The notes under the pieces were generated by a model, which was not told the DNA's origin, did not search any database, and saw only the letters and a list, made by a program, of their open reading frames with translations. A stretch of 53,277 nt of DNA from Candidatus Eremiobacterota bacterium. Its GTDB lineage: Bacteria; Vulcanimicrobiota; Vulcanimicrobiia; Vulcanimicrobiales; Vulcanimicrobiaceae. The position numbers and the translations under genes are program-made. Where the stretch lies: positions 1 to 53,277 of the forward strand of contig JAFAKB010000103.1 in NCBI GenBank assembly GCA_019235885.1, read 5' to 3'. Of the stretch, positions 33,574 through 53,031 are shown piece by piece. The stretch's first letter is position 1. Each line of letters begins with the position of its first letter.

Positions 33574-33903
33574 TTAGGTGATGATTTCCCTGACAATATC
33601 GGCAACCCGGCCGACGAGCTCATCCGGTGCTTTGCCGGCGGACGCGGCACGCCGTGCGCGCCAGTCGAGCGCTCGCATTTGGTGTGCCAAGACCGATCCG
33701 CGGACCGGCAAATCGTTCGGCAGCGCGATCTCGAACGCATTTCGCGCCTCACGTGTCGTCACCGGCGCCACAAACGCGACACCGAACGCTTCATTGAACG
33801 GCGCGGGGGAAAGCACGAGCGCGGGCCGCCGCTTCATCTGTTCATGCCCTGCCTGCGGATTGAAGTTGACGATGATGAAATCGCCGCGATCGGGCGTCGT
33901 CAT
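33574..33903 (-). CDS. MazF/PemK-family endoribonuclease toxin
   Basis: 109 residues. It has the MazF core RGDFIIVNFNPQAGHEQMKR, RPALVLS, VAFVAPVTTR and the C-terminal VGRVADIVREII. The Arg-x-Pro-Ala-Leu-Val segment and the Thr-Thr in PVTT align with the catalytic region of MazF, which cleaves mRNA. It starts directly after the stop of a MazE-like antitoxin. It is embedded between gatA and gatB, an unusual location. Confidence 0.92.
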   Translation of the reverse strand: MTTPDRGDFIIVNFNPQAGHEQMKRRPALVLSPAPFNEAFGVAFVAPVTTREARNAFEIALPNDLPVRGSVLAHQMRALDWRARRAASAGKAPDELVGRVADIVREIIT

Positions 33904-34143
33904 TCAATCAATACGCTCATTGCCGAGATCGGGGCCAATGTCCCATTCACCGCCCGGTGGGCCTTGCACCGTTCGGAGCATCGCGGAAAGACGAGAACCG
34001 TGGCGGCGCTCGACGGCGACACCGCCGTCAATGCGCCGCAGCGTCACGATGTCGCCTTCGCGCAGATCGAGATCGCGCGCTAATGCGGCCGGGAGCCGGA
34101 CGGTCAAACTATTGCCGTATCGCGCGATCTTCGTTTCCGTCAT
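33904..34143 (-). CDS. MazE/AbrB-family antitoxin
   Basis: 79 residues from ATG 34143. The N-terminal swapped-hairpin DNA-binding domain (ARYGNSLTVRLPAALARDLD, REGDIVTLRRIDGGVAVERR) is followed by an acidic C-terminal tail (GGEWDIGPDLGNERID) that should wrap the toxin. Its stop adjoins the toxin ATG. An in-frame start at 34185 exists, but ATG 34143 fits the family and sits beside an inverted repeat. It represses its own promoter in known systems. Confidence 0.9.
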   Translation of the reverse strand: MTETKIARYGNSLTVRLPAALARDLDLREGDIVTLRRIDGGVAVERRHGSRLSAMLRTVQGPPGGEWDIGPDLGNERID

Positions 34144-34194
34144 CGTATATCCGAAAGTATACACGTTGAGAACAGTGCCCCGCAAGACCGCCCG
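34144..34194 (-). promoter_or_regulatory. Candidate mazEF promoter/operator
   Basis: A 51-base gap between gatA and the antitoxin, lower in GC than its surroundings. GTATA (34145-34149) and TATAC (34158-34162) form an inverted repeat with an 8-base spacer, directly before the antitoxin ATG. It could be the MazE-type operator and would give gatB a toxin-controlled internal promoter. Confidence 0.5.
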
Positions 34195-36291: not shown

Positions 36292-37488
36292 GTGAGACGT
36301 CTCGCTTCGGCCGCCCTCGTCGCCTTCGGTGCGGTCGCCGCGCTCGTCGCCTGCCAGGGCGGCGGCGCGAACCCGCCGCCGTTCCCGACCGGTGGCTCGC
36401 CGTTCTGGTCGGTCACGTCGTCCTCCACGGTGACGCTGACCCCGGGAACCACCGTCTCGCTGCCCAGCTCGCACGGCTACGGCGGCTCGTTCACCGTGCC
36501 GTCCGGCAGCGTGCCGCCGGCGACGACGACGATCACGATCACGATGCAGAACTTCGCGCCGACGCAGACCGACGGCATCCCCGCCGTCGGACGCGTGCGC
36601 GCGCCGCAGAGCCACGGCCGCAGCGCCGAGGCGAACTTGCCGCCGCACACGACGCTGGTCTACGTCGGCGTCGAGTCGGACCACGACATCACGCTCCCCG
36701 GCGGGCTCTCGTTCACGGTCCAAGTTCCGCCGGACGTGGCCAATGCAGGCAACTTCTACATCGTGTTCTACGACCCGACCATCAAGGACTGGGTCGTCTA
36801 CTCGGGACCCGCCGCCGTGCACGGCAACAGCCTCACGTTCACGACCAACGGCCCGTTCACGCTGAAGGCGAACGTCAAATACTGGTTCGCGCTGATCGTC
36901 ACGAACGTGCTGATCCCGACGCCCACGCCTTCGCCGACGCCGACGCCGAGCGCGACCCCGACCGGCGGCCCGACGCCGACGCCCAGCCCGACGCCGCACG
37001 GCACCGCGACGCCGACGCCCACGCCGACCCCGGCCGGCGCAACACCGACGCCGACGCCGACCCCGGCCGGCGCAACGCCGACTCCGACTCCGACGCCGAC
37101 AGCAACTCCAACAGCGACCCCCACGCCGACGCCGACGCCGACGCCGACGCCCACGCCAACACCGACTCCCACGCCGACCCCGGTACCGTTCGCTCTGAGC
37201 GCGACGCCGAACCCGACGAACGTGAATGGTACGGGCGCCACGAACGCGCAGCCGATCACCGTCCATGAAACCGGCTACAATGCGACGTTCAACGAGGGCG
37301 ACAACTGCAGCGGTATCGCGACCGTCACGACGTCGAACAACCACGGCCCGAGCGCAACCTACACCGTCACCGGCGTCGCTGCCGGCTCGTGCACCGCGAC
37401 CTTCTCCGACCTCTTCGGTCAGACGGCTCCGGTGACCATCAACGTGACCACCAACCCGTTCCACATCTCGAGCAAGAAGCGCCGATGA
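36292..37488 (+). CDS. Lipoprotein with Thr-Pro stalk and beta-sandwich-like domains
   Basis: 398 residues from GTG 36292 (GAGG 7 bases upstream). The lipobox VAAL-VAC places the lipid Cys at residue ~21. Residues ~25-205 form a beta-rich, Thr/Ser/Val domain. Residues ~208-300 are almost purely Thr-Pro with Gly/Ala breaks, an extended rigid stalk. The last ~95 residues are a small Ig-like domain ([20 protein letters not shown]) with two Cys. It ends in a basic KKRR. The design suggests a surface- or periplasm-exposed adhesin or scaffold. It is followed 41 bases later by another lipoprotein. Family not recognised. Confidence 0.82.
36913..37190. repeat. Low-complexity tandem ACSCCS (Thr-Pro) repeat
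   Basis: Imperfect hexamers of the form ACGCCG/ACCCCG encode the Thr-Pro stalk. Such arrays change length by slippage, so stalk length may vary between strains. It is an in-frame protein repeat, not a CRISPR array. Confidence 0.85.
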
Positions 37489-37529: not shown

Positions 37530-38837
37530 ATGCGTAAGATCCTCATTCTCGCCACCGTGCTTGCGCTTGCGGGCTGCGGCGGCGGCGGCGGCGGCAGTTC
37601 GCAGCCGCAGCCGCCTCCCGTGCCGACCGCGGCGCCGAACGGTCCCTTCTACACGCCGCAGTTCACGATCGTCGTGCCGAGCGGCGGCAAGTCCGGCTCG
37701 AGCGCCAAGGTGAAGTCGAGCGCGCGCACGCCGAATTACGTCTCGTCCGGGACGCTCTCCGTGCAGATCACGCTGACCGCGGACTCGGTCGGCATCGCGC
37801 CCAACACGATCACAGGCAATCCGGCGACAACGGTAATCCCGGCGAACTCGTGCAACAGCGGATGCACGGTGAACGGGCCGCCGTCGCCGCCCGGAACCGA
37901 CTCGTTCCTCATCGTTACGTACGACAACAACGTCCCGGCCAGCGGCCACCCGCTCAACGCGGCCCAGCTCAACAACGTGACGATCACCGCGGGCCAGAAC
38001 AACCCGCAGAGCGTCACGCTCGGCGCGATCCCGAAGACGCTCAGCGTCTCGGGCGTTCCGACGGGCGGCGGCGCGTTCACCGCGGGCACCGCGTCGCAGG
38101 CTGCGAACGTCAGCGTCGTCGCGGTCGACGCGGCCGGCGTCACGATCCCGACCGGCCACACGCCGAACGTGTTCTACGTCGATGCCACCGGCACGGCGAT
38201 CAACGTCACGCTGAGCGATCCGGACACGGGCCAGCACGGCTCGTGCGTGATCAACACCGGCACGTCGACCTGCACCACCGGTGCGGCGACGTCGGTGACG
38301 TTCAGCGGTCCGGACGTCACGCGCGTCCTCGCGTACGACGGCCTCGCGGAGAACGACGTGACCTTGACGGCGTCCGCGAGCACAGCGACGAACGGGACCG
38401 CGATCTTTGAGCCGAAGCTGAACGCGCCGGTCTTCAACGGCTCGCAGGCGACGCCCAGCGGCGTCGCGCTGAGCGGCTCGCCGGAGATCGACCTGTTCGC
38501 CACCAGCGGAATCGGCAGCACCGGCTCCGAGTCGTTCACCGAGAGCGGCTGGACGAACGCGCCGTACGGCCACGCGCTGACGCACGCGGAGACCGGCGCC
38601 TGCACGGGCACGGCGACGTCGATGTCGCAGATCGCCACGATCTCGACCGGCGCGAACGACACGACGAACGGCACGCCGTTCACCGCGACGGTCGTCGGCA
38701 GCCCGGTCACCGGCTCGTGCCCGTCGACGATCAGCGACGGTCTTTCGGGCAACGGCACCGACGGCTCGGCGACGCTGACCGTGACCTACACGACCTCGTC
38801 GATCAGCGCGTCGGCGAAGCACCGCCACCAGAAGTAA
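37530..38837 (+). CDS. Gly-rich secreted lipoprotein, unknown
   Basis: 435 residues from ATG 37530, chosen over the upstream in-frame starts because AAGGAG precedes it and a lipoprotein signal begins there (ILATVLALAGC, Cys at residue 16) followed by a Gly/Ser linker. The rest is a repetitive Thr/Ser/Asn-rich beta protein with three or more Ig-like modules and paired Cys (NSCNSGCTV, GSCVINTGTSTC). Its segment ARTPNYVSSGTLSVQITL matches APQYVSSSTSKIVFTL of the next lipoprotein, so they share an N-terminal domain. Function unknown; a surface matrix or adhesin role is suggested by composition. Confidence 0.85.
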   Translation: MRKILILATVLALAGCGGGGGGSSQPQPPPVPTAAPNGPFYTPQFTIVVPSGGKSGSSAKVKSSARTPNYVSSGTLSVQITLTADSVGIAPNTITGNPATTVIPANSCNSGCTVNGPPSPPGTDSFLIVTYDNNVPASGHPLNAAQLNNVTITAGQNNPQSVTLGAIPKTLSVSGVPTGGGAFTAGTASQAANVSVVAVDAAGVTIPTGHTPNVFYVDATGTAINVTLSDPDTGQHGSCVINTGTSTCTTGAATSVTFSGPDVTRVLAYDGLAENDVTLTASASTATNGTAIFEPKLNAPVFNGSQATPSGVALSGSPEIDLFATSGIGSTGSESFTESGWTNAPYGHALTHAETGACTGTATSMSQIATISTGANDTTNGTPFTATVVGSPVTGSCPSTISDGLSGNGTDGSATLTVTYTTSSISASAKHRHQK

Positions 38838-38976: not shown

Positions 38977-41124
38977 ATGAAACGGCTCGGCAAGAAGCTC
39001 TTCTTCAATTTCCTCGCCTCCGTCGCGGCCGCATCGCTCGCCGCGTGCGGCGGTGGTTCACACAGCGCTCTGCCGCTAGCCGGCCCGATCGCGAACGGCG
39101 CGCAGTATAACGGCCCGCTCGCCGACGCGACGTTCAAGATCACCATTCCGCCACCGCCGAAGACGAGCGGCAAGCAGCGCGCGCCGCAATACGTCTCGTC
39201 GTCGACCTCGAAGATCGTCTTCACGCTGAACACGGCGAGCCGCCTGACCGCCGGGCAAGTGACTTCGTTCAACACGAGCAGCCTCGGCGCGATGGCCGTG
39301 ACGCTCAACAGCCCGACGTGCCCGGGGACCGGGCCGTGGACTTGCACGCTGACGATCAAGCTGCCGCCGGGCACCGACAACATCACCGTCTCCGCCGAGG
39401 ACTCCTCGAACCACGTCCTCTCGCAGCAGATTCAGAGCTTCACCGTCGTCGTGGCGACGGCGAACTCGTTCAGCCTCGTCCTCGACGCGAACGTCAACGT
39501 CATGACCGTCAACGGCAGCGGCAGCTGCCAGAACGGCCCGGTCGGCTCCGTGTTCGGCTCGGTCGGAACGACGCCGGTCACGTTCACGGTCTCGAACACC
39601 GACCTTGCGAACAAGACGATCATCGGACCCGGTCTGCCCAAGATTGAGATTCAGGACAACACCGCCACCTACCAGGCAGCGTCGGGGACCATCAACGGGA
39701 CCGGCGGCACGGTGAGCTTCACGATCAACCAGGCTGCGCAAAGCTTCACGCTGACGCCGAGCAACAGCTCGACGACCAACGCCTCGATCAACGTCAAGGA
39801 GATTCCGCCGAACTCGAACGGCGGGAGCGACGGCTTGTCGTTCGCGCCGACCAAGAGCTTTGCGTTCTCGACCGGCGTCGCGCCGCCGTCGCACAATTTC
39901 CTCGCCGTCGTCGAGCAGACCGGCGCAAACAGCGGTCAGGTCGATCTCTTCAACGTCAACAGCACGGATCAGTCGTCCCTCTCGGCGTTCAGCCCCGCGA
40001 CGCTGCCGGTCACGAACTCGACGAACGAGAACAAGCCGGACGTCGACAACCCGCTCTCGCTCGTTTGGGACAACACCGGCGATCTGCTGATCGGCAACTC
40101 CCATGACGGAAGCGCGAACGGGGGCGACATGGCGTGCATTCCCGTCGGCGCGATCTCGACCGGCGCGAACACGTCGACGACCGTCTCGTCGAACGTCACC
40201 GTTCCGGTCGCGATCGCATACGACAGCCGCGACGGCAGCGTGGCGCTCGCCGACAACACGATCAGCGCGACGTACGCTCTCTCCGAATATCTCTTGACGG
40301 GAAACTACACCGCCGCGGCCCCGCCGCGCGACCTGACCGAAACCGGTCTTGGTGACAACTGGGTGGTCGACATCCCGGTCACGACCCTCAACGCCGGAAC
40401 GTACGCGGCAGCGATCACGGACGGCGGTGAGGTCGACCCCGCGCACGGCGGTCCTCACACCTCAAAGATCACCATCTTCAGCCCGAACGGAACTGCTACC
40501 GACGTCACGTGCGGGGGGTCGTGCACGGGCACGACGTACGCGATCGACAACCCGACCTCGCTGGCATGGGACAACACGAACAACCAGCTCGTGATCGCCA
40601 ACGGCTCGATCTTCCACAAGCAACTGAGCTTCTATACGATCTCGGGCGCCGGAAATAGCCCGGTCGCGGTGCAGACGAAAGTCATCGCCGTGCCGAGCAA
40701 GCAGTTCGTCGTCGCGACCTCGCCCGACGGGCACGTCGCGGTCCAGTACAACTCGCCCGCCGGTTCGGGCTATCCGCTGGTGCAGGTCTACGACAACACC
40801 GCCGCACGGAACCCCGTCGGCGGCCCGATTCCGTACAACAACACCACCGACGCCGGAACGTGCTCGAACTACGTCTACGGCAGCATCGGCGCGCCGATCG
40901 TGCGCTCGTTGACGTGGCTGTCGAACTCGAAGCTGATGGTGGCGCTGGAAGACACCAACGCCGGCTTCACCGCCCAAAACGGCTTGCACATCTACGACAT
41001 CACCAACCTGACCGTCCCGACGGGCTACGACGACAAGAACTGCGCGGCGTATAGCGCCGCGCCGACTCAAACGTCGTCGACGCAGATCACCAACAGGCCG
41101 CTCGGGACGGCGTTCAAGCCTTAA
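38977..41124 (+). CDS. Large secreted lipoprotein heading the tail-collar operon
   Basis: 715 residues from ATG 38977 (GAGG 10 bases upstream; ATG 38968 is too close to it). The lipobox LAAC (Cys ~24) is followed by GGGSHS. The N-terminal domain is shared with the previous lipoprotein. The C-terminal ~450 residues show spaced repeats such as NPLSLVWDNTGDLLIGN and NPTSLAWDNTNNQLVIAN, which look like blades of an NHL/YncE-type beta-propeller. A propeller on a lipid anchor suggests a binding scaffold. A small hairpin CAGCCGC/GCGGCTG (38945-38963) precedes the start. Only 16 bases separate it from the first tail-collar gene, so they are one operon. Confidence 0.85.
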   Translation: MKRLGKKLFFNFLASVAAASLAACGGGSHSALPLAGPIANGAQYNGPLADATFKITIPPPPKTSGKQRAPQYVSSSTSKIVFTLNTASRLTAGQVTSFNTSSLGAMAVTLNSPTCPGTGPWTCTLTIKLPPGTDNITVSAEDSSNHVLSQQIQSFTVVVATANSFSLVLDANVNVMTVNGSGSCQNGPVGSVFGSVGTTPVTFTVSNTDLANKTIIGPGLPKIEIQDNTATYQAASGTINGTGGTVSFTINQAAQSFTLTPSNSSTTNASINVKEIPPNSNGGSDGLSFAPTKSFAFSTGVAPPSHNFLAVVEQTGANSGQVDLFNVNSTDQSSLSAFSPATLPVTNSTNENKPDVDNPLSLVWDNTGDLLIGNSHDGSANGGDMACIPVGAISTGANTSTTVSSNVTVPVAIAYDSRDGSVALADNTISATYALSEYLLTGNYTAAAPPRDLTETGLGDNWVVDIPVTTLNAGTYAAAITDGGEVDPAHGGPHTSKITIFSPNGTATDVTCGGSCTGTTYAIDNPTSLAWDNTNNQLVIANGSIFHKQLSFYTISGAGNSPVAVQTKVIAVPSKQFVVATSPDGHVAVQYNSPAGSGYPLVQVYDNTAARNPVGGPIPYNNTTDAGTCSNYVYGSIGAPIVRSLTWLSNSKLMVALEDTNAGFTAQNGLHIYDITNLTVPTGYDDKNCAAYSAAPTQTSSTQITNRPLGTAFKP

Positions 41125-41140
41125 CGAAAGCAGAGGATCA

Positions 41141-41680
41141 ATGGCCTCACCTTATGTCGGCGAGATTCGAATGTTCGCTGGGAGCTTCCCACCACAGGGG
41201 TGGATGACGTGCGACGGCCAGATACTCCCGATCTCGGAATACGAAACGCTCTTCAACCTGATCGGAACGACGTACGGAGGGGACGGTCAAAGCACGTTTG
41301 CCCTGCCGAACCTCGCCGCGCAGGTTCCGCTCCACATGGGCAACAACGGCATCTCCACCTACACCTTGGCCCAGACCGGAGGCACCCCGAGCGTCACGCT
41401 GACGACGAATCAGATGCCGTCCCACACTCATCCGATCGTCGCGGACAACAACGGGGCGACGGCGGTCAGTCCCTCGAGCGCATACTATGCGGCGTCGACG
41501 CCGAAGCTGCTGTACACCGTTCCGAACAGCCCGGCGAATCCCGATTCGCCGACATGGCGCAACTTCAACGCCGGATTTCTTCCGTCCCAAGGCGGAAGCC
41601 AGCCGCACGAAAACATGCAGCCGTACTTGGCGATTACGTTCATCATATCGCTGTTCGGCATTTACCCGAGCCCGACGTAG
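41141..41680 (+). CDS. Phage tail collar domain protein 1
   Basis: 179 residues. It opens with the tail-collar signature YVGEIRMFAGSFPPQGWMTC, DGQILPIS and IGTTYGGDGQSTFALPNL, then the His motif MPSHTHPI, and ends with GGSQPHENMQPYLAITFIIS. This module forms trimeric tips of phage tails; free-standing bacterial versions are known and often occur in trios. It has no signal peptide. First of three paralogues. GAGGA precedes ATG 41141. Confidence 0.92.
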   Translation: MASPYVGEIRMFAGSFPPQGWMTCDGQILPISEYETLFNLIGTTYGGDGQSTFALPNLAAQVPLHMGNNGISTYTLAQTGGTPSVTLTTNQMPSHTHPIVADNNGATAVSPSSAYYAASTPKLLYTVPNSPANPDSPTWRNFNAGFLPSQGGSQPHENMQPYLAITFIISLFGIYPSPT

Positions 41681-41689
41681 AGGTTAGAG

Positions 41690-42235
41690 ATGTCGAGTCC
41701 ATTCCTAGCAGAGATCCGCATCTTTCCGTTCAACTTCGCCCCGAAGGGCTGGGCGTTCTGCGACGGGCAGCTCATGCCGATCTCCCAAAACACGGCTCTC
41801 TTCTCGCTCCTCGGCACGTTTTACGGCGGCGACGGCAAGAGCAATTTCGCGCTGCCGAACCTGCAGGGCAACGTGGCGATCCACACGACCCAGTACAGCG
41901 GTAACTCACCGTTCGGCCAATTCTACCTCGGGCAGACGGGTGGCGTGGACTACGTCACGCTCCTCACGAGCGAGATGCCGGCACACACGCACACGGCGCA
42001 GGCCGACTTCGACAACAACAACGCTACGGCGAGTTCGCCGAGCGGTGCTGTGCCGGTGAACGCGACGCCGATCCACACCTTCTCGAACCCGAGCGGGCAG
42101 ACGCCGCAAATCGCCTCCATGAACCCGGCCATGATCAGCGTCGCAGGCGGCAGCCAGCCGCACAACAACATGATGCCTTATTTGACGCTCAACTACTGCA
42201 TCGCACTTCAGGGAATCTTCCCGGCGCGCCCGTAG
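41690..42235 (+). CDS. Phage tail collar domain protein 2
   Basis: 181 residues, paralogue of its neighbours (FLAEIRIFPFNFAPKGWAFC, DGQLMPIS, FYGGDGKSNFALPNL, MPAHTHTAQ, GGSQPHNNMMPYLTLNYCIA). The start is 9 bases after the previous stop with GAGG in the gap. Divergence lies in the central loop (residues ~105-140), probably the exposed, specificity-bearing part of the trimer. Export route unclear, as no signal peptide is present. Confidence 0.92.
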   Translation: MSSPFLAEIRIFPFNFAPKGWAFCDGQLMPISQNTALFSLLGTFYGGDGKSNFALPNLQGNVAIHTTQYSGNSPFGQFYLGQTGGVDYVTLLTSEMPAHTHTAQADFDNNNATASSPSGAVPVNATPIHTFSNPSGQTPQIASMNPAMISVAGGSQPHNNMMPYLTLNYCIALQGIFPARP

Positions 42236-42271
42236 GCGCCGGGACGACGATACGCTAGGAGCAACGATTCG

Positions 42272-42784
42272 ATGTCTGAACCATTCCTCTCCGAGATCAG
42301 GATCATGTCGTTCAACTTCGCTCCCAAAGGGTGGGCGCTGTGCAACGGCCAGCTGTTGCCGATCAACCAAAACCAGGCTCTCTTCTCGCTGCTCGGCACG
42401 ACTTACGGCGGCGACGGGCGTGTGAACTTCGCGCTTCCCAACCTTCAGGGACGCGTCGCGATGCACATGGGCGGCGGTCATACGCTCGGTGAGCGCGGCG
42501 GTGAAGAGGCGCACACCGTGATCCAGAGCGAGATGCCCGCGCACATCCATCCCGCGCAGGCCGACATCAAGCAAGGCGATGCGAACACCGGAAACCCTGG
42601 GAACGCCTATCCGGCATACACCACGGGGAACCCGATGTACTCGAACGGCAGCAACAACATGGTGGCGATGTATCCCCAAATGGTCTTGAACACCGGCGGC
42701 AGCCAGCCGCACGAGAACCGCCAGCAGTTTCTGTGCCTGAACTTCTGCATCGCCCTGCAAGGGATCTTCCCGAGTCAGAACTAG
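42272..42784 (+). CDS. Phage tail collar domain protein 3
   Basis: 170 residues (FLSEIRIMSFNFAPKGWALC, NGQLLPIN, TYGGDGRVNFALPNLQG, MPAHIHPAQ, GGSQPHENRQQFLCLNFCIA). Closest to protein 2 in the N-terminal half. AGGAG lies 11 bases before the ATG. It keeps the C-terminal LQGIFPSQN shared with protein 2, which supports recent tandem duplication. Confidence 0.92.
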   Translation: MSEPFLSEIRIMSFNFAPKGWALCNGQLLPINQNQALFSLLGTTYGGDGRVNFALPNLQGRVAMHMGGGHTLGERGGEEAHTVIQSEMPAHIHPAQADIKQGDANTGNPGNAYPAYTTGNPMYSNGSNNMVAMYPQMVLNTGGSQPHENRQQFLCLNFCIALQGIFPSQN

Positions 42785-42828
42785 TCTGCGACAGCCCTTT
42801 CTGACCTACACCGAAAAGGACAATTACA

Positions 42829-43752
42829 TTGAAGCGCGCCCCGTTTCTCGGGGCCGCCGGAGCGGCGTTGCTCGCAGGCTGCGGCGGTTCCCACGTGATG
42901 CGAGCGCTTCCGGGTGTCGCGCCTTCGAACATCAGTCACTCTTCGCAGCCCGCTCTTAGCGGGCGACTCGAACCACAAGCCGCGGACCCAATCCCGGACA
43001 ACGTCCTCAACAACCCCATCATGGGTGAAGCTCGGCGTTTCGACGGCGCCGTCGCGCCCCATGGCTGGATGCTCGCTCAAGGACAAGCGCTGGACATTGC
43101 GCAGAACCGGCACCTCTTCTCCATCCTCGGCGTGAGCGCCGGCGGCGACCGCCGCACGACGTTCAAGCTGCCCGCGCCACGATTCGGGTTGATCGTGGCG
43201 ACCGCGGGGTTGTTCCCCACCAGCCCCGAGGCGCTCGCTCAATCGAGCCGCCGCACCACGCTCGCAGCGTCGCTCGGCCCGAACGCGCGTCCCGGCCCCG
43301 TTCGAGCAAAGAACACCAAGCGAGAGGAGGCGCTGCTCGCCGAGCGCCGGCTGCGGCCTTCGGCGATTCGCGTCAGCTCCGCCTCACCGATTCCGCTCTC
43401 GCGCGAGCTCCGCGGGCGGATACAGCAGGCCGAGGGCGACGCGCGCTCAGCCGTTTTCGGAGCGCTGACGACAGAGAACCAAGCTCGGCTCGAATCCGCC
43501 GTCCGCAGTGCCGTTGCCGGAGAAGTTTCCGTCTCGGACGCGGTCCGCGCGATGATCGCGGTGCTCAGCCGGACGGAAGCCGAAACGGTCGTCAGAGCGA
43601 ATGACGCGCTGATACACCCCTTCAACGACCGATGGGCCGGAGAGCCGGAGCAAGATTTGCAGCTGGAAGCCGCTACCTTCCTCATCTCGATCATGATCAC
43701 GCGCGAACAGGCGCATACGATCTACCTGCGCGAACGCGCCACCGAACGCTGA
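42829..43752 (+). CDS. Lipoprotein with a tail-collar-like N-terminal module and helical C-terminus
   Basis: 307 residues from TTG 42829, preceded by AAGGA with 8-base spacing. The lipobox ALLAGC (Cys ~18) is followed by a segment that mirrors the collar module: MGEARRFDGAVAPHGWMLAQ, then GQALDIAQNRHLFSILGV and AGGDRRTTFKLPAP. The collar's His-rich C-terminal half is absent. Instead residues ~140-307 are Arg/Glu/Ala-rich helices. A lipid-anchored, truncated collar fused to a helical domain would suit a docking partner for the three soluble collar proteins encoded just upstream. That role is inference; the homology is seen by eye. Confidence 0.82.
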   Translation: MKRAPFLGAAGAALLAGCGGSHVMRALPGVAPSNISHSSQPALSGRLEPQAADPIPDNVLNNPIMGEARRFDGAVAPHGWMLAQGQALDIAQNRHLFSILGVSAGGDRRTTFKLPAPRFGLIVATAGLFPTSPEALAQSSRRTTLAASLGPNARPGPVRAKNTKREEALLAERRLRPSAIRVSSASPIPLSRELRGRIQQAEGDARSAVFGALTTENQARLESAVRSAVAGEVSVSDAVRAMIAVLSRTEAETVVRANDALIHPFNDRWAGEPEQDLQLEAATFLISIMITREQAHTIYLRERATER

Positions 43753-43754
43753 GC

Positions 43755-44114
43755 GTGGGCAAGATCGTCAACTTCCACCTCCCGGCCGACGACGTGGAGC
43801 GGGCCGCGACGTTCTACCGGGAGGTGTTCGGGTGGAACTTCGTACCGCATCCCGATTCGCCGGTTCCGTACCTGGTGCACGAGCCGACCGAGGACTCGGG
43901 GTCCGGCATTCCGGCCGCAATCACCCAGCGCCAAGAGATCATCAAGGCGCCGGTGCCGACCATCGAGGTCGAGCACATCGACCAAGCGATGGTGAACGTC
44001 GCGATGAACGGCGGCCAGCAGGCGCGCGTTCAGGACATCCCCGGGCTGGGGCGCTTCGGTTATGCGATCGACTCCGAAGGGAACGTGATCGCGCTGCTCC
44101 AGCGCGCCCCGTGA
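43755..44114 (+). CDS. VOC (glyoxalase/bleomycin-resistance fold) family protein
   Basis: 119 residues from GTG 43755, 2 bases after the previous stop. One VOC unit: VNFHLPADDVERAATFYREV, FGWNF, YLVHEP, then the second half IEVEHIDQAMVNVAMNGGQQ to GRFGYAIDSEGNVIALLQ. The family binds metals or small ligands and dimerises; the substrate is unknown. Position suggests co-transcription with the collar operon but no functional link is apparent. Confidence 0.88.
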   Translation: MGKIVNFHLPADDVERAATFYREVFGWNFVPHPDSPVPYLVHEPTEDSGSGIPAAITQRQEIIKAPVPTIEVEHIDQAMVNVAMNGGQQARVQDIPGLGRFGYAIDSEGNVIALLQRAP

Positions 44115-44222: not shown

Positions 44223-46049
44223 ATGAAGAAATTTGCGGCCCTAGCCGCCCTCGGAGTGCTCGCGACCGCCTGCTCGCACGGCGGCGCCGCCTTGCCGCCG
44301 GCCGGACCGGCCGGCCTCGCGCCCGGCAGCAGCGGCGCGCCCAGCACGATGGGTGCTCGAACCCTGCGCCCGAAATCGATCACCGCGCCGGCCGGCTGGG
44401 CGGCGACCGCGACCGGCGCGCTCGCGCTGGCGAACGCGAGCGACCTCGGCCAGCTCGACCGCGGCAAGACCGTAGAGGTCACGCTCGCCCTGCAGATGCG
44501 CAACGCCGACGCGGTCAAGTCTGCGATCGCCTCGGGACAGCGCATGTCGCGCGACGCCTTCGTCGCGCAGTACGCGCCCTCGTCGAGCCAAGTGTCGGCG
44601 GCCGTCGGCTACCTGCAAAGCCAGGGCTTCAGCAACGTTCAGGCAGCGCCGAACAACATGCTGGTCACGGCGAGCGCGGGCGCCGCGACAGTCGAGAAAG
44701 CGTTCAACACCTCGCTGCACGCGTTCAGCGTCAACGGGAAGAGCTATTTCTCGAACACGCAGCCGGCGTACGTCCCCACCTCGCTCGGTGGCAACGTCGT
44801 CGCCGTGCTCGGGCTGACCAACTTCCCGGGATTGCAGGTCCATCCGACCACGCGCCCGATCTCCGGTGCGCAGCCCTCCGTCTTCGACGGCAACGGAAAC
44901 CCGCAGACGACCGCGTGCACGAAGAACGTCAACACGACCACCGGCACGCCGGTCTGCCCGCGCTTCTACGATCCAGCTGCGTTCAGCATCGCGTATGACG
45001 TCGCCGGTACCCCGCCCGCTACGAACACGCAGCTCGCGATCTTCACCGAAGGCGACGTCGGCACGGCGATCAGCGATTTTCGCTCGAACGAGACGAACTT
45101 CGGGATGCCGTACGTCGGCATCAACGTGCTGCATGTCGGGACGCCGTCCGCCGACACGTCGGGGAACACCGAGTGGACGCTCGACATGACGTATTCGTCC
45201 GGCATGGCGTACAACCTCAGCCAGATCGACCTCTACAACGCGCCCTCACTCTCGTTCACCGATTTGGTGCGCGCGATCAACCGCTGGGCGAGCGACGACA
45301 TCGCGCCCGTTATGAACGCGTCGGTCGGCGGCTGCGAGGTCTTCCCGTACGAGAGCGGCGACATGCTCGCCGGCGACATGGTGCTCGTCGAAGCGGCCGC
45401 GCAAGGACAGACGCTCTTCGCCTCGACCGGCGACACCGGCGCGTACTGCGGCGCGGCGGGCGTTCCGCCGAACGGCGGCGTCGGCGGCGCCCCGCTGATC
45501 GAGTGGCCCGCGGCATCGCCCTACGCGGTCGCGGTCGGCGGCACCGATCTGTTCAGCAACGTCGACGGCACGTACCTCGGCGAAGACGCGTGGCAGTCGG
45601 GCGGCGGCGGCTTGAGCCAGTTCGAGTACTCGCCGTACTGGGAGAGCCCCGCGCAGCCGGTCGGCACGACGCCGGCAGGCTTGACGTTCCGCGGCGCGCC
45701 CGACATCGCGTACGACGCGGGAATCGAGACCGGCGCGCTGCTGTGGCAGGGCGGCACGGAGTACATCACCGGCGGAACGAGCCTCGCATCGCCGATGGCC
45801 GCAGGCGTCTACGCGCGCATGCAGAGCGCGCACGGCAACGCGCTCGGCTTCGCTGCGCCGCTGCTCTACCGCGTCTTCGGCAACAGCACCCCGCAGCAGA
45901 TTGCCGGACCGCCGGAGACTGAGTTGATCGGACCGTTCCACGACATCTTGCAAGGGACCAACGGCCTCTACACCGCGCTGCCCAAGTACGATTACACGAC
46001 CGGACTCGGCAGCATCGACGTCGCGCGCCTCAGCGCGGCACTGCACTAA
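44223..46049 (+). CDS. S53 (sedolisin/kumamolisin-like) peptidase 1, lipoprotein-like signal and propeptide
   Basis: 608 residues from ATG 44223 (GGAGGA upstream). A signal peptide ends near TAC (Cys17), a degenerate lipobox. A pro-kumamolisin activation domain spans about 75-205 (KTVEVTLALQMRNADAVKSA, QYAPSS, GFSNVQ). The catalytic domain carries Glu317 and Asp321 (TEWTLDM), oxyanion Asp404 (STGDTGA) and nucleophile Ser520 (GGTSLASP), and ends with the calcium-site segment (FHDILQGTN ... DYTTGLGSID). Such enzymes are acid-active endopeptidases that self-process after secretion. An identical gene order with a second S53 follows 12 bases later. Confidence 0.95.
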   Translation: MKKFAALAALGVLATACSHGGAALPPAGPAGLAPGSSGAPSTMGARTLRPKSITAPAGWAATATGALALANASDLGQLDRGKTVEVTLALQMRNADAVKSAIASGQRMSRDAFVAQYAPSSSQVSAAVGYLQSQGFSNVQAAPNNMLVTASAGAATVEKAFNTSLHAFSVNGKSYFSNTQPAYVPTSLGGNVVAVLGLTNFPGLQVHPTTRPISGAQPSVFDGNGNPQTTACTKNVNTTTGTPVCPRFYDPAAFSIAYDVAGTPPATNTQLAIFTEGDVGTAISDFRSNETNFGMPYVGINVLHVGTPSADTSGNTEWTLDMTYSSGMAYNLSQIDLYNAPSLSFTDLVRAINRWASDDIAPVMNASVGGCEVFPYESGDMLAGDMVLVEAAAQGQTLFASTGDTGAYCGAAGVPPNGGVGGAPLIEWPAASPYAVAVGGTDLFSNVDGTYLGEDAWQSGGGGLSQFEYSPYWESPAQPVGTTPAGLTFRGAPDIAYDAGIETGALLWQGGTEYITGGTSLASPMAAGVYARMQSAHGNALGFAAPLLYRVFGNSTPQQIAGPPETELIGPFHDILQGTNGLYTALPKYDYTTGLGSIDVARLSAALH

Positions 46050-46061
46050 GGAGCGACGAAG

Positions 46062-47831
46062 ATGAAACGCCTTCTGGCACTCGCACTCACCACCGGGCTC
46101 GCGACGGCGTCGTGCTCCGGCGGCGGCATAAGCCACCTCCTCCCAGGCACAAGCAGCCCCGGAGCGCGCGCCGCGCGCGTCGCACCGAGCGACGCGATCG
46201 TCGCGCCGGCCGGTTGGGCGGCGACCGCGACGCGCGGCGCGACGATTCCGAGCGGAGCCGATCGCGGCGCGCTCGCGCCGACGACCCCGCTGACGGTGCG
46301 CGTCGCGCTCAACCTGCACAACGAAGACTCGCTCAAGTCCTTGATCGCGGCGCGCCAGAAGATCTCGGCGGCGCAGTTCGCAGCGCAGTTCGGCCCCGCG
46401 CCGAGCGAGGTGCAGTCCGTCGTCACGTACTTGCGCAGCCAAGGCTTCACCAACGTGCAGACGAGCGCGCAGCTCGTCAGCGCGGACGGCACCGCGGCGC
46501 AAGCCGCCAAAGCGTTCAACACGACGCTGGAATCGTTCTCGCTCGGCGGCGCGAACGTGTACGTCAACACGCAGCCGGCATTCGTTCCGACCTCGCTCGG
46601 CAACGTGGTGAGCGCCGTGCTCGGGCTGAACAACGCGGCCCGGATGGCGGTCCACCCCGTCCAGCGCACGAACACGCAGTGTTTCCCCGGACAGGCGAGC
46701 GCACCGTGTCTGCCGCTCTTCGACTCCGCGGGCGTTCAAAAGTACTACGACGTCGGCTCGACGCCCACCGCGTCGTCGACGACGATCGCGGTGATCTCCG
46801 AAGGCGACGTCTCGGCGGTCGTCAGCGATCTGCGCATGGCGGAAGCGGCGCAGAGCCTGCCGCAAGTTCCGGTGACGGTCGTGCACGTCGGACTCTCGAC
46901 GCCGGACACTTCCGGGGGCGGCGAATGGGATCTCGACACGCAGAGCTCGACTGGGATGGCGGGCAACGTCTCGATGCTCTACATCTACGCGACCTCGTCG
47001 CTGACCGACTCCGACATCGCGAACGACTACAGCCGCTGGGTCGGCGACGACCTCGCGCAGCTCGGCAACTCCTCGTTCGGCGAGTGCGAGTACCAAGCGT
47101 TCCTCGACGGCGCGCTGAAGGTCGACGATCACCTCTTCATGCAAGCCGCAGCACAAGGGCAGACGATGTTCGCCTCGACCGGCGACACCGGCTCGGCGTG
47201 CGCGCTCGCACCGACGAACGGCGCGCCGGGCTCGGGCCCGCCGATGGTTTCGTATCCCGCCGCCTCGCCGTACGTGGTCGGCGTGGGCGGGACGAGCGCG
47301 GTCGCGAACAACGACGGCAGCTACGCCGGCGAGACCGCGTGGAACGCCGGCGGCGGCGGGATCAGCCAGTTCGAGAACTCGACCTCGTGGCAGCAAGCGG
47401 TCACGCCGAACAGCACCGGGCTCGCCGCGACGAACCTGCGCGGCCTCCCCGACATCGCGATGGCGGCCGATCCGAACCTGGGCGGCTACAACGTGTACGG
47501 CGCGAACGTCCCGGGGATTGGCGCGTGCCCGAGTGGTTGCGGCATCGGGGGAACGAGCGAAGCGTCGCCGCTCGCGATGGGCTCGTATGCGCGACTCCTG
47601 ACCGCGCACCCGGCGCTCGGCTTTGCAGCGCCGCAGCTCTACCGGAACTACATCGAAACGAACGCGGCCGCCACGACGGTCACGGGACCGCCCCCGACGC
47701 AGGCGTACGGTGGGTTCCACGATGAGATCACCGGCGGCAACGGTGCCTACACCGCGCTGCCCGGCTACGACTACACGACCGGGCTCGGTTCGCTCGACCT
47801 CTCGCTGATGAATGCGCAAATCGGAACGTAA
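46062..47831 (+). CDS. S53 (sedolisin-like) peptidase 2
   Basis: 589 residues, a tandem paralogue of the preceding gene. AAGGAG precedes the ATG by 8 bases. The signal peptide ends near ATASC; the propeptide covers about 75-200. Catalytic Glu288 and Asp292 (GEWDLD), Asp375 (STGDTGS) and Ser499 (GGTSEASP) are all present. Extra Cys pairs (QCFPGQASAPC, CPSGCG) indicate disulfides not found in copy 1. It probably forms an operon with copy 1 and gives broader extracellular protein digestion. Confidence 0.95.
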   Translation: MKRLLALALTTGLATASCSGGGISHLLPGTSSPGARAARVAPSDAIVAPAGWAATATRGATIPSGADRGALAPTTPLTVRVALNLHNEDSLKSLIAARQKISAAQFAAQFGPAPSEVQSVVTYLRSQGFTNVQTSAQLVSADGTAAQAAKAFNTTLESFSLGGANVYVNTQPAFVPTSLGNVVSAVLGLNNAARMAVHPVQRTNTQCFPGQASAPCLPLFDSAGVQKYYDVGSTPTASSTTIAVISEGDVSAVVSDLRMAEAAQSLPQVPVTVVHVGLSTPDTSGGGEWDLDTQSSTGMAGNVSMLYIYATSSLTDSDIANDYSRWVGDDLAQLGNSSFGECEYQAFLDGALKVDDHLFMQAAAQGQTMFASTGDTGSACALAPTNGAPGSGPPMVSYPAASPYVVGVGGTSAVANNDGSYAGETAWNAGGGGISQFENSTSWQQAVTPNSTGLAATNLRGLPDIAMAADPNLGGYNVYGANVPGIGACPSGCGIGGTSEASPLAMGSYARLLTAHPALGFAAPQLYRNYIETNAAATTVTGPPPTQAYGGFHDEITGGNGAYTALPGYDYTTGLGSLDLSLMNAQIGT

Positions 47832-47934: not shown

Positions 47935-50900
47935 ATGATGCGCCGACGACGTCTGCTCTTGGTCGCGACCGGCGCCGTGGCTCTCGCAGCCATCGGCGTC
48001 GTGAGCGCGCACGACCAGCTCGCGGGCGCCGGCATCCGCGCCGCGGTCGGAGCGCTCGGGTACGACTTCAGCGCGCAGAGCACGCACGTCACACGGAATA
48101 GCTTGGCCGTCGTCGCGCCGGTCGTGCGCAACCGCCAAGGCGAGCCGGTGCTCAGCGCGGACCGGCTGGACGTTCAGTTCTCGCTGCGCGACTTGCTGCC
48201 GGGCGGGAAACGCCGCTTCGGGCTGCGCGCGATCGACGTGCAGCGCCCGCTGCTTACGCTCATCCATCACGCCGACGGCACGTACAACGTCGCGCTGCCC
48301 GGCGGAAGCGGGCCGCCGCCGCGGCCCGACAACACGCCGCTCGACGTGCGCGTGCGGGTGCGCGACGGGCGGATCGCGCTAATCGACCGCTTCGTGGTGC
48401 CGAACCACGAGCGGCGCGAGTCGGTGAACGGGGTGAACGTCGACGCGGTTCTCGCGCCGACCGATCCGGCGTACTATCGCGTCGACGGCGTGCTGCAGGA
48501 CGGCGCGCGCAGTTACCCCATCAGCGGGCGCGCGCGGTTCGACCACAAGCGCGGCTTCGCGTCGCAGCACTGGCACGCGGATGAGCTGCCGGTCGGGCCG
48601 CTGGTGAACTTCGCGATGGCGACGCACGCCGTGCACGTCGTCGACGGGCGGCTGCAGAACGTCGACGCGCGCATCTACGGCTTCATCGCGGACGACGGCA
48701 CGACGAGCACGCACGCCGGCGCGGTCGCCGACTTGGTGGACGGAAAGATTTTCGCGGCGCAGCTGCGCGTTCCGATCGGCGACGCGCACGGCCGCTTGTA
48801 CGTCTACGACGACGGCGTGACGACGGGCGGGATCGTCGCGACGCTCGCCGGCGTCCCGCTGCACCTGGCCGGCGGCGTCTACGGTCTCGCGCACCCGCAG
48901 ATGCGGTTCCTCATCGACGGGCGTGGACCGCTCCAGCAATTGCGCACGATCTCCGAGCAGTCGGCGCGGCGCCCGCTCTCGGGCGACGTGGCGTTCCAGC
49001 TGCGTGCCGACGGGCCGATCGACAAGCCGGTCGTGCGCGGCTCCTTCTTCTCACCGCGGCTCGCGTACGGCGGGTACGGGCTTACGCGCGCCGCCGGCAC
49101 CGTCGCGTTCTCCGGCGAAGATTTCCAGGTCCTCGGCATCGAGGCGCGCTACGGGCCGCTCGCATTGCGCGCGCACGGCGAGCTGATCCTCGGCAAGCAA
49201 GTCGACACCGATATGCTCGCGACGGTCGACGGCCCCGGCGACGCGCTGCCGTACGGCGCCGCGGTGCTGCCGCACGCGCGCGTGCACGCGTTGGTGCACC
49301 TGACCGGCACCGCGGAGAAGCTCGCGGCGCTCGGTGCGGTCGCGGCGCAGGCACCGCACGGCACGCTGGACACGACGTTCGCGCTCGATCCCGACGGCAC
49401 CGGAACGGTCGGCCCGCTCGCGCTCGCGCGCGCCGACGGCGCGTCGGTGTATGCGCGGGTCGCGTTCGACCGGCCGAACAACGCGGTCGACGGGATCGTC
49501 AGCGCGCGCCGCTTCGCGCTGTTGCCGGCGCGCGCGGTACGGCTGCCCGGCTTCAACGGGGCGGCGCTGCCGCCGGTTTCGGGGACGCTCGACGCGGACC
49601 TCGCGGGTTACCTGCGCGGCTCGAACGTCGCGGAAGCGGCCGGCGACGTTCATTTGCGCCGCGCCGGCGTGGCGGGGATCGCGATCGGCGACGCCGACGC
49701 GCACCTCGGCACGACGAGCGAAGGCGTCGCGTTGAACGGCGTCAGCGTGCGCGGACCGCTCGGCGAGCTGCGCGGCGAGGGCGCGTACGCGACGGCGAAC
49801 GGCCTCTTCGCATTGCGCGCGCGGCTGCGCAGCAGCGTCGAGCGGCTGGCATCGGTGCTGCACGGCGCGCGCGGGAGCGGCGGCATCGACGCGCAGCTGC
49901 GCGTCGTCGCGCGCAACGGCCGCGGCGTGCTGCAGATCGCCGATGCGCGCTTCGCCGGCGCACGCCTTCAAGGCGTCGCGCTGCAGCACGCCGAGGCGAC
50001 CGTCGCGTTGCGCAACAACGCGATCGACGTTCCGGCGGCGCGGATCGACGCCGCCGGCGGTTCGGTCGTCGGCGCGGGCAGCTTCGGGAACGGCGGCAGC
50101 GTGCGGCTGAGCGCGAGCGGAATCGACGCTTCGGCGTTCCGCGGCGCGGGGCTTCCGCTCTCCGGGGGGCGGCTCGCCGCCGTCGGCGTCGTGAGCGGGA
50201 CGCAGCGCGATCCGCGCGCGCAAGCCGTCGTCGCGCTCGCGGGCGCGAGCTACGGCGGCGCGCCGCTCGCCGCGACCGCCTCGGGCGCATACGCCGGCGG
50301 AACGCTCGCGCTCGACCGCGCGAACGTCGCCTACGACGGCGCGGTCGCCGATGCGAGCGGTTCCATTTCGAACCTCGCCGGCGCGGCCCCACTCCTTGAT
50401 TTGAACGGTCACGTGCGCGGTGCCGACGTCGCGGCGTTCTCGCGCCGGCTCGGCGTGAAGCTGCCGTATCCGGACGCGGCGGTCGACGCCGACCTGCGCG
50501 TGCGCGGCGCGCTGAGCGACCCGTCGATCGGCGGCGCGGCGCGCATCGCGGCCGGCTCGATCAACGGGCTCGCGTTCCACGACGTCGTGCTTCCGCTCAG
50601 CGGCGATCTCGCGGCGGTCGCCGTGCGCGGCGGGAGCGCGACGGTCGGCTCGACGACACTGCACTTCGATGCGCTCGCCTCGCGCGGCGGCGCGCGCGGC
50701 TCGGTGCGCTCCGACCGCGCGGACTTGGCCGATTTCAACGACTACTTCGACTCCGCCGAAACCCTCGCCGGGCGTGGGCGGCTCGCGATCGCGTTCGCCG
50801 CCGGCGGTTCGTCGCTGGCGACCTCCGGCGACGTCGCGCTCGCGGGCGTGCGCTATTTCCGGCTGCCGATCGGCGACGTCGGCGCGCGCTGGTCCTCGCA

Positions 50901-53031
50901 CGGCCGCACGATCGCCGCGAGCGCCGACGTCGGCGGACCGCACGGGCGCTTGAGCGCGCGCGGCTCGGCGACCGTTCCGGCGCGCGATCCGCTCGCGCAC
51001 CTCGTTGCGAGCGCGATCGACACGCAGGCGACGATCGCCGGGCTCGATCTCACGACCTGGCTCCCCGCGCTCGGCGTCATCGCGCCGGTCACCGGCCGCG
51101 TCGACGGGGCGGTGCGCGTGCGCGGCACGGCGCCTCAGCTCGCGTTCTCCGGGAACGCTGCACTGCACGACGGCAACGTCGGACGCCTTCCGATTCGCCG
51201 GCTCGAGCTCGCTGCCAATGAAGACCGCGGCCGCACCCGGATCGCGCGCGCGCGGCTGGAAGCGCTGAACCTCGTCGCCGAGGGCAGCGGCTCGTTCGGT
51301 TTGCGCGCCGGCGATCCGGTGCAGCTCGCGTTGCACGCCGTCTCGCCCGACGTCGGCACGTTCGCGACGCGCGCGACCGGCACGCTGGTCGACGCGGCGG
51401 GCGCGCTCGACACGACGCTGACAATCTCCGGCACGCGCGGCAAGCCGATCGTGCACGGACTGCTCGACGTCGACAACCCGCGCTACGAGCGGACGAACGC
51501 GCGCCATGCGCATGCCGACCTCGCGTACGGCAACGGCCGGCTGAACGTGCGCGACGCCTCGCTCGATTTGATCGCCGGGCGGCTCGCGCTCAGCGGCAGC
51601 GTTCCGGCTACGCTGACGCCGCCGTTCGTCGACCGCCGCAACGCCCCGATTACGGCGCGGCTGGTCGCGAGCAACGTCGACCTCGGCCAGTTCGCGCAGC
51701 TCTTGCCGAAGGACACGAAAGCCGGCGGGATCGTGAACGGCGACGTCGCGGTCGCCGGAACGCTGCGCGTTCCGCGGCTCAGCGGGAGCGTCGCGCTCGC
51801 GAAGGCGACCTTCGTCTCGTCGCAGCTCGCCTCGGAGCTGCGCAACGGAACGCTGCAGCTCGCGCTCGCCGGACGGACCGCGCGCATCACGGCGCTGCAT
51901 GCGGACATCGGTGGCGGCGCGGTCGACGGGAGCGGCATGCTGCGCGCCGGCGATCTGCGCGGGCTGCCCGGGTCGCTCGCGTTCAATCTCGACACGCGCG
52001 AGAAGAACGTCGGGATCGACATGCCCAAGCTCTTCCGCGGCAAGCTGAACGGCGCGCTCTCGGTGAGCCGCAGCAACGGTGCGCCGATCCTGCTCGCGGG
52101 CGATCTGGCGATCTCGCACGCGCGCGTTCCGCTGAGCGCGCTGCTGCCGTCGTCGTCCGGCCCCTCGAACGCGGCGCCGCTTCCGGTCGCCTTCGCATTG
52201 AACGTCGCTGCGACGAGCGACGACCGGCTCCAAGGACCGGCAGTCGACGTCGGCGCGAAAGGCGCCGTGCAGGTGAGCGGAACGCTCGCGCATCCCGCGC
52301 TCAGCGGCGACTTCGCCTCGACCGACGGAACGCTGAGCTTCTACCGCACCTTCGTGCTGCAGAGCGCGCAGGTCGCGTTCGACCCGGCGAGCGGGATCAT
52401 CCCGAGCGTCGACGCGACCGCGACGACGCACGTCCCCGACCCGGCGACCGACGTGCTGCTGCACGTGCACGGGCCGGCGACCGGCTTGTCGATCGACTTC
52501 GCCTCGAATCCCGATTACGACCGTTCGCAGATCCTCGGGCTGCTGGTCGGCGCGCAAGGCCTCGGTGCGGTCGCCGGCGTCGCGCGCACGACGCCGCCCG
52601 CGAGCGACAACGGCAACGCGATTCAGAATCTCGCCGTCGGCTACGTCGACCAGCGCTTCACGCAGTCGCTGTTCGAGCCGTTCTCCGCCTCGCTCGGCAG
52701 CGCGCTCGGCTTTTCGACGTTCAGCTTCAACGCCGGCCTCACCGGCGGGTTCTCGGCGAGCGCGAGCCGCCAGCTCGGCAAGAACCTCCAAGCGTCGTTC
52801 TCCGAGGCGGAGGGCTCGCAAGGAAACCAGCAAGCGCTCGCGCTCGCGATGAGCTTCTCGAACGCGGCTTCGATGCAGCTGACGATCTTCAACGCGGGCA
52901 GCAGCGCGCGCACGTTCGGGCTGTCGAACCCCTTGACGCCGACCGGCCCGACGAACTATCAGCTCCAGGCGCTGGCGCCCACGCCCGGCACGAGCGGTTA
53001 CGTCTTCACCTTCCAGCGCCGCTATCCCTAA
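47935..53031 (+). CDS. TamB/AsmA-like inner-membrane-anchored envelope protein
   Basis: 1,698 residues from ATG 47935 (ATG 47938 is equally possible). A short basic N-terminus and one transmembrane helix (LLLVATGAVALAAIGVVSA) are followed by more than 1,500 residues of repeating Gly/Ala/Leu-rich beta strands (ALRAHGELIL-, SGSVALAKATF-like units), the taco-shaped lipid-transport architecture. The C-terminal TamB domain (DUF490) is recognisable: LSGDFASTDGTLSFYRTFVL, FDPASGIIPSVDATATTHVP and DYDRSQILGLLVGAQG. These proteins span the periplasm and move phospholipids, or help insert barrels together with TamA. No tamA/BamA gene is visible here. It is longer than E. coli TamB (about 1,260 residues). 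Confidence 0.92.
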   Translation: MMRRRRLLLVATGAVALAAIGVVSAHDQLAGAGIRAAVGALGYDFSAQSTHVTRNSLAVVAPVVRNRQGEPVLSADRLDVQFSLRDLLPGGKRRFGLRAIDVQRPLLTLIHHADGTYNVALPGGSGPPPRPDNTPLDVRVRVRDGRIALIDRFVVPNHERRESVNGVNVDAVLAPTDPAYYRVDGVLQDGARSYPISGRARFDHKRGFASQHWHADELPVGPLVNFAMATHAVHVVDGRLQNVDARIYGFIADDGTTSTHAGAVADLVDGKIFAAQLRVPIGDAHGRLYVYDDGVTTGGIVATLAGVPLHLAGGVYGLAHPQMRFLIDGRGPLQQLRTISEQSARRPLSGDVAFQLRADGPIDKPVVRGSFFSPRLAYGGYGLTRAAGTVAFSGEDFQVLGIEARYGPLALRAHGELILGKQVDTDMLATVDGPGDALPYGAAVLPHARVHALVHLTGTAEKLAALGAVAAQAPHGTLDTTFALDPDGTGTVGPLALARADGASVYARVAFDRPNNAVDGIVSARRFALLPARAVRLPGFNGAALPPVSGTLDADLAGYLRGSNVAEAAGDVHLRRAGVAGIAIGDADAHLGTTSEGVALNGVSVRGPLGELRGEGAYATANGLFALRARLRSSVERLASVLHGARGSGGIDAQLRVVARNGRGVLQIADARFAGARLQGVALQHAEATVALRNNAIDVPAARIDAAGGSVVGAGSFGNGGSVRLSASGIDASAFRGAGLPLSGGRLAAVGVVSGTQRDPRAQAVVALAGASYGGAPLAATASGAYAGGTLALDRANVAYDGAVADASGSISNLAGAAPLLDLNGHVRGADVAAFSRRLGVKLPYPDAAVDADLRVRGALSDPSIGGAARIAAGSINGLAFHDVVLPLSGDLAAVAVRGGSATVGSTTLHFDALASRGGARGSVRSDRADLADFNDYFDSAETLAGRGRLAIAFAAGGSSLATSGDVALAGVRYFRLPIGDVGARWSSHGRTIAASADVGGPHGRLSARGSATVPARDPLAHLVASAIDTQATIAGLDLTTWLPALGVIAPVTGRVDGAVRVRGTAPQLAFSGNAALHDGNVGRLPIRRLELAANEDRGRTRIARARLEALNLVAEGSGSFGLRAGDPVQLALHAVSPDVGTFATRATGTLVDAAGALDTTLTISGTRGKPIVHGLLDVDNPRYERTNARHAHADLAYGNGRLNVRDASLDLIAGRLALSGSVPATLTPPFVDRRNAPITARLVASNVDLGQFAQLLPKDTKAGGIVNGDVAVAGTLRVPRLSGSVALAKATFVSSQLASELRNGTLQLALAGRTARITALHADIGGGAVDGSGMLRAGDLRGLPGSLAFNLDTREKNVGIDMPKLFRGKLNGALSVSRSNGAPILLAGDLAISHARVPLSALLPSSSGPSNAAPLPVAFALNVAATSDDRLQGPAVDVGAKGAVQVSGTLAHPALSGDFASTDGTLSFYRTFVLQSAQVAFDPASGIIPSVDATATTHVPDPATDVLLHVHGPATGLSIDFASNPDYDRSQILGLLVGAQGLGAVAGVARTTPPASDNGNAIQNLAVGYVDQRFTQSLFEPFSASLGSALGFSTFSFNAGLTGGFSASASRQLGKNLQASFSEAEGSQGNQQALALAMSFSNAASMQLTIFNAGSSARTFGLSNPLTPTGPTNYQLQALAPTPGTSGYVFTFQRRYP

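Follow-up and report, generated by a model that had tools for sequence, protein, structure and literature searches.

Many bacterial genes carry the label 'tail fiber protein' and are easily written off as phage scrap. Three genes of this kind, which encode small proteins with the phage tail-collar domain (PF07484), lie in tandem in the window analysed here, a 53,277-nucleotide stretch of DNA from a Candidatus Eremiobacterota bacterium. They are enclosed by the genes for a 715-residue lipoprotein and for a lipid-anchored protein that itself carries a collar domain (collar-lipoprotein). Did a phage leave these genes behind, or do they belong to the bacterium? An earlier note on this DNA had taken them for a five-gene cassette that builds a surface fibre. 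Our analysis partly supports this interpretation: we lean, with little more than even confidence, towards a cassette of the bacterial chromosome that probably encodes a cell-surface structure, in which lipoproteins would tether a hetero-oligomeric fibre tip. The earlier note missed that the collars are leaderless, that the block is larger, that the collar trio recurs across phyla, and that it is linked to modifying enzymes in relatives.

Conservation of the cassette in related genomes

The five open reading frames (ORFs) from the 715-residue lipoprotein to the collar-lipoprotein (38977–43752) are consecutive and all on the + strand, with gaps of 16, 9, 36, and 44 nucleotides, just as first described. 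The same order was sought in 98 related genomes, the window's own (G000) counted in. Collars were present in 20 of them, and ten cassettes, including that of the window, were found in three genera (G000, G002, G004, G005, G007, G008, G009, and G010; G013 and G040 represent the two other genera). In all ten, the 715-residue lipoprotein gene lay immediately 5' of the trio and the collar-lipoprotein gene 3' of it, all in the same direction, so that the expected co-occurrence of lipoproteins and collars was borne out. The gene for the VOC/glyoxalase-fold protein (VOC gene) followed the collar-lipoprotein gene by no more than 17 nucleotides in nine of the ten cassettes, with some starts overlapping. 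The five genes are where they had been placed, but the block is larger, since it also comprises two upstream lipoprotein genes and the downstream VOC gene. It adjoins gatCAB in the window, G004, G005, G007, and G008; in the window, gatC/gatA lie upstream of the block on the opposite strand.

Simple counts of nonsynonymous versus synonymous change (dN/dS) against G008 put the collars at about 0.17–0.23, the collar-lipoprotein at 0.30, and the 715-residue protein at 0.51. Because these values range from about 0.17 to 0.5, they suggest that the cassette is under purifying selection and, together with the same-order orthologues in nine relatives, they argue that the arrangement is not due to chance. 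Full-length relatives of the collar-lipoprotein have retained its lipobox, as have three truncated ones.

The lipoproteins might be unrelated neighbours of the trio in a lipoprotein-rich region, with no common function. G001 keeps a 715-residue lipoprotein without any collars, and a second trio in G002 is devoid of lipoproteins, as this explanation would have it. However, the genes are co-directional and only 13–20 nucleotides separate the 715-residue lipoprotein gene from the first collar gene in all ten cassettes (after correction of the starts in the window and G008), the 715-residue family occurs in only 12 of the 98 genomes, ten of which have it directly before collars, and the collar-lipoprotein carries a collar domain itself. 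We therefore regard a fortuitous association as doubtful. Decaying copies were also observed: a stop-broken collar beside a second copy of the 715-residue lipoprotein gene in G008 (contig C6, 1090038–1090154) and three truncated tandem collars in G007 (contig C300, 1767–2421; L083).

Three collar classes that occur together across phyla

To look beyond the relatives, a GTDB scan with a query led by a class A protein (see below) was used, from which the best 80 of at least 571 matches were retained. These 80 loci cover Pseudomonadota, Bacteroidota, Acidobacteriota, Chloroflexota, Bacillota, Actinomycetota, and others, and the related species among them are not independent. Exactly three collar ORFs were present in 73 of the 80 loci, and most of 33 trio-bearing genomes contained exactly three PF07484 matches genome-wide. 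A separate tblastn search of plasmids similarly gave three places per record for most full-length matches.

We sorted 279 collars into three classes, A, B, and C, with iterative profiles that were seeded by gene position but applied no operon rule, the own locus of each sequence being left out. One member each of A, B, and C was found in 90 of 93 trios, versus 22% expected. The gene orders among these 90 trios were ABC (58), BAC (15), BCA (14), ACB (2), and CBA (1). These classes did not arise from the positional seed, because the genus of the window shifted to the order B-C-A from sequence alone. In a FastTree tree, the position label changed 43 times, compared with a mean of 132 and a minimum of 113 when labels were shuffled within operons. 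These results show that three ancient collar paralogues have been retained together, one each, across phyla. Such a regular composition in 90 of 93 trios points to an obligate three-part complex as its simplest meaning, and the multi-part collar complex expected from the earlier note is thus likely. Since phage collar domains assemble as trimers, a single heterotrimer of A, B, and C is the natural guess. Six and nine tandem collar genes (two and three trios) were seen on the short contigs L182 and L183, those of L182 being preceded by collagen-like proteins with GxT repeats.

Could the collars nevertheless be the remnant of a prophage or of a tail module? Phage tail fibres are the best-known setting of the collar domain, the collars match PHROG tail families, and one IMG/VR contig (L189/G131) with phage genes carries a trio and a phage capsid gene about 27 kilobases (kb) apart; the module may be cargo there or belong to flanking host DNA. 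Against this, no phage gene was found among the tested genes that flank the cassette in the window (Pfam, PHROGs), and in the relatives its neighbours are lipoproteins, gatCAB, and enzymes. The gene order is identical in three genera, several times beside gatCAB, and the genes appear to be under purifying selection. The best phage matches of a related collar were 35–38% identical and stood as single copies in tail modules, while bacterial ones reached roughly 40–67%; the prevalence of exactly three collars per locus and per genome likewise speaks against debris. Among 80 IMG/VR loci, nine carried at least three collars, and most of these lay on short contigs. The phage-remnant explanation is therefore largely refuted, and retains hardly any probability; on this point the earlier note had judged correctly.

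Neighbours of the trio: surface proteins and modifying enzymes

Outside the lineage of the window, the trio keeps constant company. Within four genes of the trio, 75 loci contained a GNAT acetyltransferase of one cluster in 59 cases, a DUF6916 protein in 57, and a protein of more than 1000 residues in 52; the corresponding numbers among 316 genes farther away were 1, 1, and 9. In the 33 genomes, which were picked for having collars, 35 of 37 DUF6916 genes lay no more than 5 kb from collars. The giant proteins frequently contained cadherin, immunoglobulin (Ig), or beta-helix domains and carried lineage-specific surface anchors (SLH domains in Paenibacillus, a T9SS sorting domain in Dyadobacter). 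Those encoded directly upstream of the trio (L096–L177) have a C-terminal region of about 220 residues in common across phyla; this region often ends near cysteine and proline (e.g. GGAACPTP). Annotated plasmids gave the same picture, with trios on plasmids of many genera. At L185, a second, ordinary sulfotransferase (2910–3764) is encoded between the trio and a DUF4347/fn3 giant protein. In the open-licence PMC literature, we found no description of this module where collars were combined with sulfotransferase, GNAT, or choice-of-anchor, and no paper naming DUF6916. Low far-red light induces three collar genes of Acaryochloris together with a gene for an acetyltransferase (PMC11633204).

A sheath gene of Acaryochloris is induced together with the collar trio under one condition in the same study (PMC11633204), and G000 contains one sheath-family match, though on a different contig. 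The collars might thus form the tip, or a receptor component, of a contractile injection system whose genes lie elsewhere in the genome. This is unlikely, since no sheath match was found in 21 of the 33 trio-bearing genomes nor near any trio (baseplate genes were not searched for), and the cassette-bearing G002, G004, G005, G009, G010, G013, and G040 had no sheath match.

The window departs from the usual module. DUF6916 (PF21880) was absent from G000 and present in only one of the 98 genomes (G089), beside its collars; no usual GNAT lay next to the trio of the window, the profile of this GNAT matching only G089 among the loci of the relatives; and the profile of the C-terminal region common to the giants matched nothing in the window or its relatives. 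In place of these three partners, the trio of the window has the lipoproteins and the fourth, lipid-anchored collar protein as neighbours.

The relatives, in turn, showed a set of potential modifying enzymes. Sulfotransferase-like matches occurred at 14 places in 11 genomes, every one within about 6 kb of a collar match, and eight of nine genes of a short PF05118 hydroxylase-like group were similarly placed; 18 stronger PF05118 matches were not near collars. A Nif11-like small protein and another GNAT also recurred at these trio regions. Because the genome of the window contains neither a sulfotransferase of the trio-linked type nor the short hydroxylase, and G040 only a broken sulfotransferase stretch, both enzymes are accessory in this lineage. 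Profiles built narrowly on the hydroxylase and sulfotransferase of the relatives matched in only 2 of the 80 cross-phylum loci, which indicates that the modification set is not universal. Both enzymes adjoin a Spirosoma trio, outside the window lineage, and a single-chain GNAT-sulfotransferase fusion (L162, 7101–8606) is encoded directly beside the trio of an Acidimicrobiaceae genome. On the 42-kb contig L189 (955–8516), an APS kinase is followed in a row by an Asp-hydroxylase-like protein, a Nif11/sulfotransferase-like chain, a GNAT, the three collars, and a DUF4347 protein. The APS kinase (E 1.9e-69) and PF05118 (E 1e-17) were called with Pfam and the sulfotransferase with our own profile (E 1.1e-54), while the Nif11 part was assigned by reading. 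As a kinase that makes 3'-phosphoadenosine 5'-phosphosulfate (PAPS) adjoins the sulfotransferase, sulfation is the likely chemistry.

If the collars were not part of an anchored fibre but a cytoplasmic or secreted multi-protein substrate of such enzymes (a particle that acts as a signal, resembles a bacteriocin, or relates to stress), trios would also be expected to cluster with genes for GNAT, hydroxylase, sulfotransferase, APS kinase, and Nif11-like proteins, as they do. The collars indeed have no signal peptide, and a collar protein of Ruegeria pomeroyi was detected in the exoproteome (PMC4949626). On the other hand, giant exported, surface-anchored proteins adjoin most trios, the lipoproteins of the window lineage favour a surface partner, and the window is without two of the enzymes. 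We consider such a particle the less probable explanation, but it is the alternative that deserves most weight.

Architecture and proposed assembly of the window cassette

The features of the block are collected in Table 1. PF07484 scored 95–96 bits for the trio and 51 bits for the collar-lipoprotein (Pfam; curated cut-off 24), and these four were the only matches to this family in the 4.5-Mb genome. Lipoboxes were found on four proteins of the block and on none of the three collars; in the 715-residue lipoprotein and the collar-lipoprotein, the lipobox closes a signal sequence.

Table 1. Genes of the conserved block in the window
Feature	Coordinates	Strand	Remarks
PT-rich lipoprotein, 398 residues, opens the block	36292..37488	+	LVACQ lipobox; same-place orthologues in G002, G004, G007, G009, G040
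435-residue lipoprotein	37530..38837	+	lipobox LAGC; same-place orthologues in G002, G004, G007, G008, G009, G013, G040
715-residue lipoprotein, C-terminal part repeat-rich	38977..41124	+	lipobox SLAAC; C24 invariant in 8 aligned orthologues
Collar protein, class B	41141..41680	+	PF07484 E 2.8e-27; class from profile
Collar protein, class C	41690..42235	+	PF07484 E 2.3e-27; class from profile
Collar protein, class A	42272..42784	+	PF07484 E 9.6e-28; class from profile
Collar-lipoprotein, 307 residues, TTG start	42829..43752	+	lipobox LAGC; PF07484 E 1.1e-13
VOC/glyoxalase-fold protein, 119 residues, closes the block	43755..44114	+	one orthologue scores Ble-like_N/Glyoxalase

Downstream of the VOC gene lie two tandem sedolisin-type proteases with lipoprotein-like N-termini (44223–46049 and 46062–47831); proteases of the same cluster also adjoin the cassette in G002, G004 (a fragment), G007, and G008. 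They are followed by a 1698-residue protein (47935–53031) that resembles TamB/AsmA-type envelope proteins by eye and has no PHROG match. Between gatB and gatA, a pair resembling a MazF/PemK-type toxin and an AbrB-like antitoxin was noted, by eye only (33574–33903 and 33904–34185, - strand).

The collar-lipoprotein consists of the lipobox, a shortened collar domain (residues 66–115), and a helical C-terminal domain (about 191–306), which AlphaFold modelled with a predicted local distance difference test score (pLDDT) of mostly 80–90. No database fold matched the latter domain at an E value below 0.9 (best Foldseek E 0.97). A possible resemblance to the Spy/CpxP (LTXXQ) chaperones came from a motif seen by eye; PF07813 matched weakly (E 0.21) in 1 of 12 members, and Spy/CpxP was absent among the PDB profile-search matches. 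Stand-alone relatives of this helical domain occur in G048, G067, G057, G034, G032, and G004 C183 (L071–L074). The 715-residue lipoprotein has a conserved C-terminal end, A(F/Y)KP, and five stretches of the type [VIL].[WY]D..G.L.[IV]. The latter, which the earlier note had called propeller-like repeats, can be discerned by eye but found no supporting match in Pfam, NCBIfam, or PDB sequences; the idea of a beta-propeller was dropped for lack of support from hidden Markov models and PDB.

In the assembly that we propose, A, B, and C would come together, most simply as one heterotrimer, to form a fibre tip. The collar-lipoprotein would dock into this complex through its shortened collar domain and tether it to a membrane, while the 715-residue lipoprotein may serve as stalk or platform, standing in for the giant cadherin/Ig protein of other phyla. 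As for the enzymes linked to the trio in relatives (hydroxylase, sulfotransferase, acetyltransferase), their target is probably the complex or its partner. Gene order, collar classes, lipoboxes, and linkage are established here; assembly, surface display, ligand binding, and modification are our inferences.

Several observations weigh against the tethered fibre tip. The trio of the window has none of the usual GNAT, DUF6916, giant protein, aspartyl-hydroxylase-like enzyme (AspH), or sulfotransferase nearby, and G001, as mentioned, carries the 715-residue lipoprotein on its own. In addition, the three collars are without signal peptide and their domain begins close to the N-terminus, at about residue 7 for those of the window, and the start methionine of class A is nearly invariant in alignment column 1, so that a cytoplasmic role is possible. 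The collar protein in the Ruegeria exoproteome need not belong to a trio. Finally, AlphaFold gave a poor monomer model for the class A collar, with a mean pLDDT of 53, and this model was left out of fold searching.

A broader idea can be put forward only tentatively, with a probability well below even: that the trio belongs to an undescribed cross-phylum surface apparatus, with an obligate A/B/C heterotrimer as its tip, decorated by an acetyltransferase, an aspartyl-hydroxylase-like oxygenase, and a PAPS-dependent sulfotransferase with its own APS kinase, and held by a lineage-specific anchor (SLH, T9SS, giant adhesin, or lipoproteins). The rule of three classes, with the constant acetyltransferase, DUF6916, and giant surface protein, makes these genes a testable bacterial system in many phyla. 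It suggests that a fibre tip of the phage type has persisted in bacteria as an assembly of three obligatory parts, and gives a context to DUF6916 and to a set of sulfotransferase and hydroxylase genes. The window contributes a lipoprotein-tethered variant.

How does this cassette compare with known systems? It has the collar domain PF07484 in common with phage tail fibres (T4 short tail fibre gp12, PDB 1OCY/1PDI; long tail fibre, 8KEC). The closest solved structure in a PDB profile search was indeed 8KEC (E 1.7e-10), the match to the T4 short fibre being weak (0.08). Unlike phage fibres, the collars of the window are free-standing proteins of 170–181 residues that form an A/B/C set in a bacterial operon without phage structural genes. 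They share domain and size class with the bacterial 'tail fiber protein' or 'microcystin-dependent protein' (COG4675), but differ from the usual bacterial trio, with its GNAT, DUF6916, and giant cadherin/Ig protein, by their lipoproteins and the lipid-anchored fourth collar protein. RhiB of Rhizobium, for which a collar domain and a possible role in plant interaction have been reported (PMC13133039), is likened to them here by its published description, not by sequence. Each MAT fibre protein of Bdellovibrio is one long chain that includes a signal peptide, an N-terminal domain common to the MATs, and a stalk of its own, and the MATs are described with no mention of collar domains (PMC10769870). 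The window collars, at their size and with the collar domain starting so close to the N-terminus, have room for neither a signal peptide nor a long stalk in the chain. In spite of these differences, the MATs resemble the present cassette as we picture it: they are phage-fibre-like, trimeric surface recognition proteins in a bacterium (PMC10769870).

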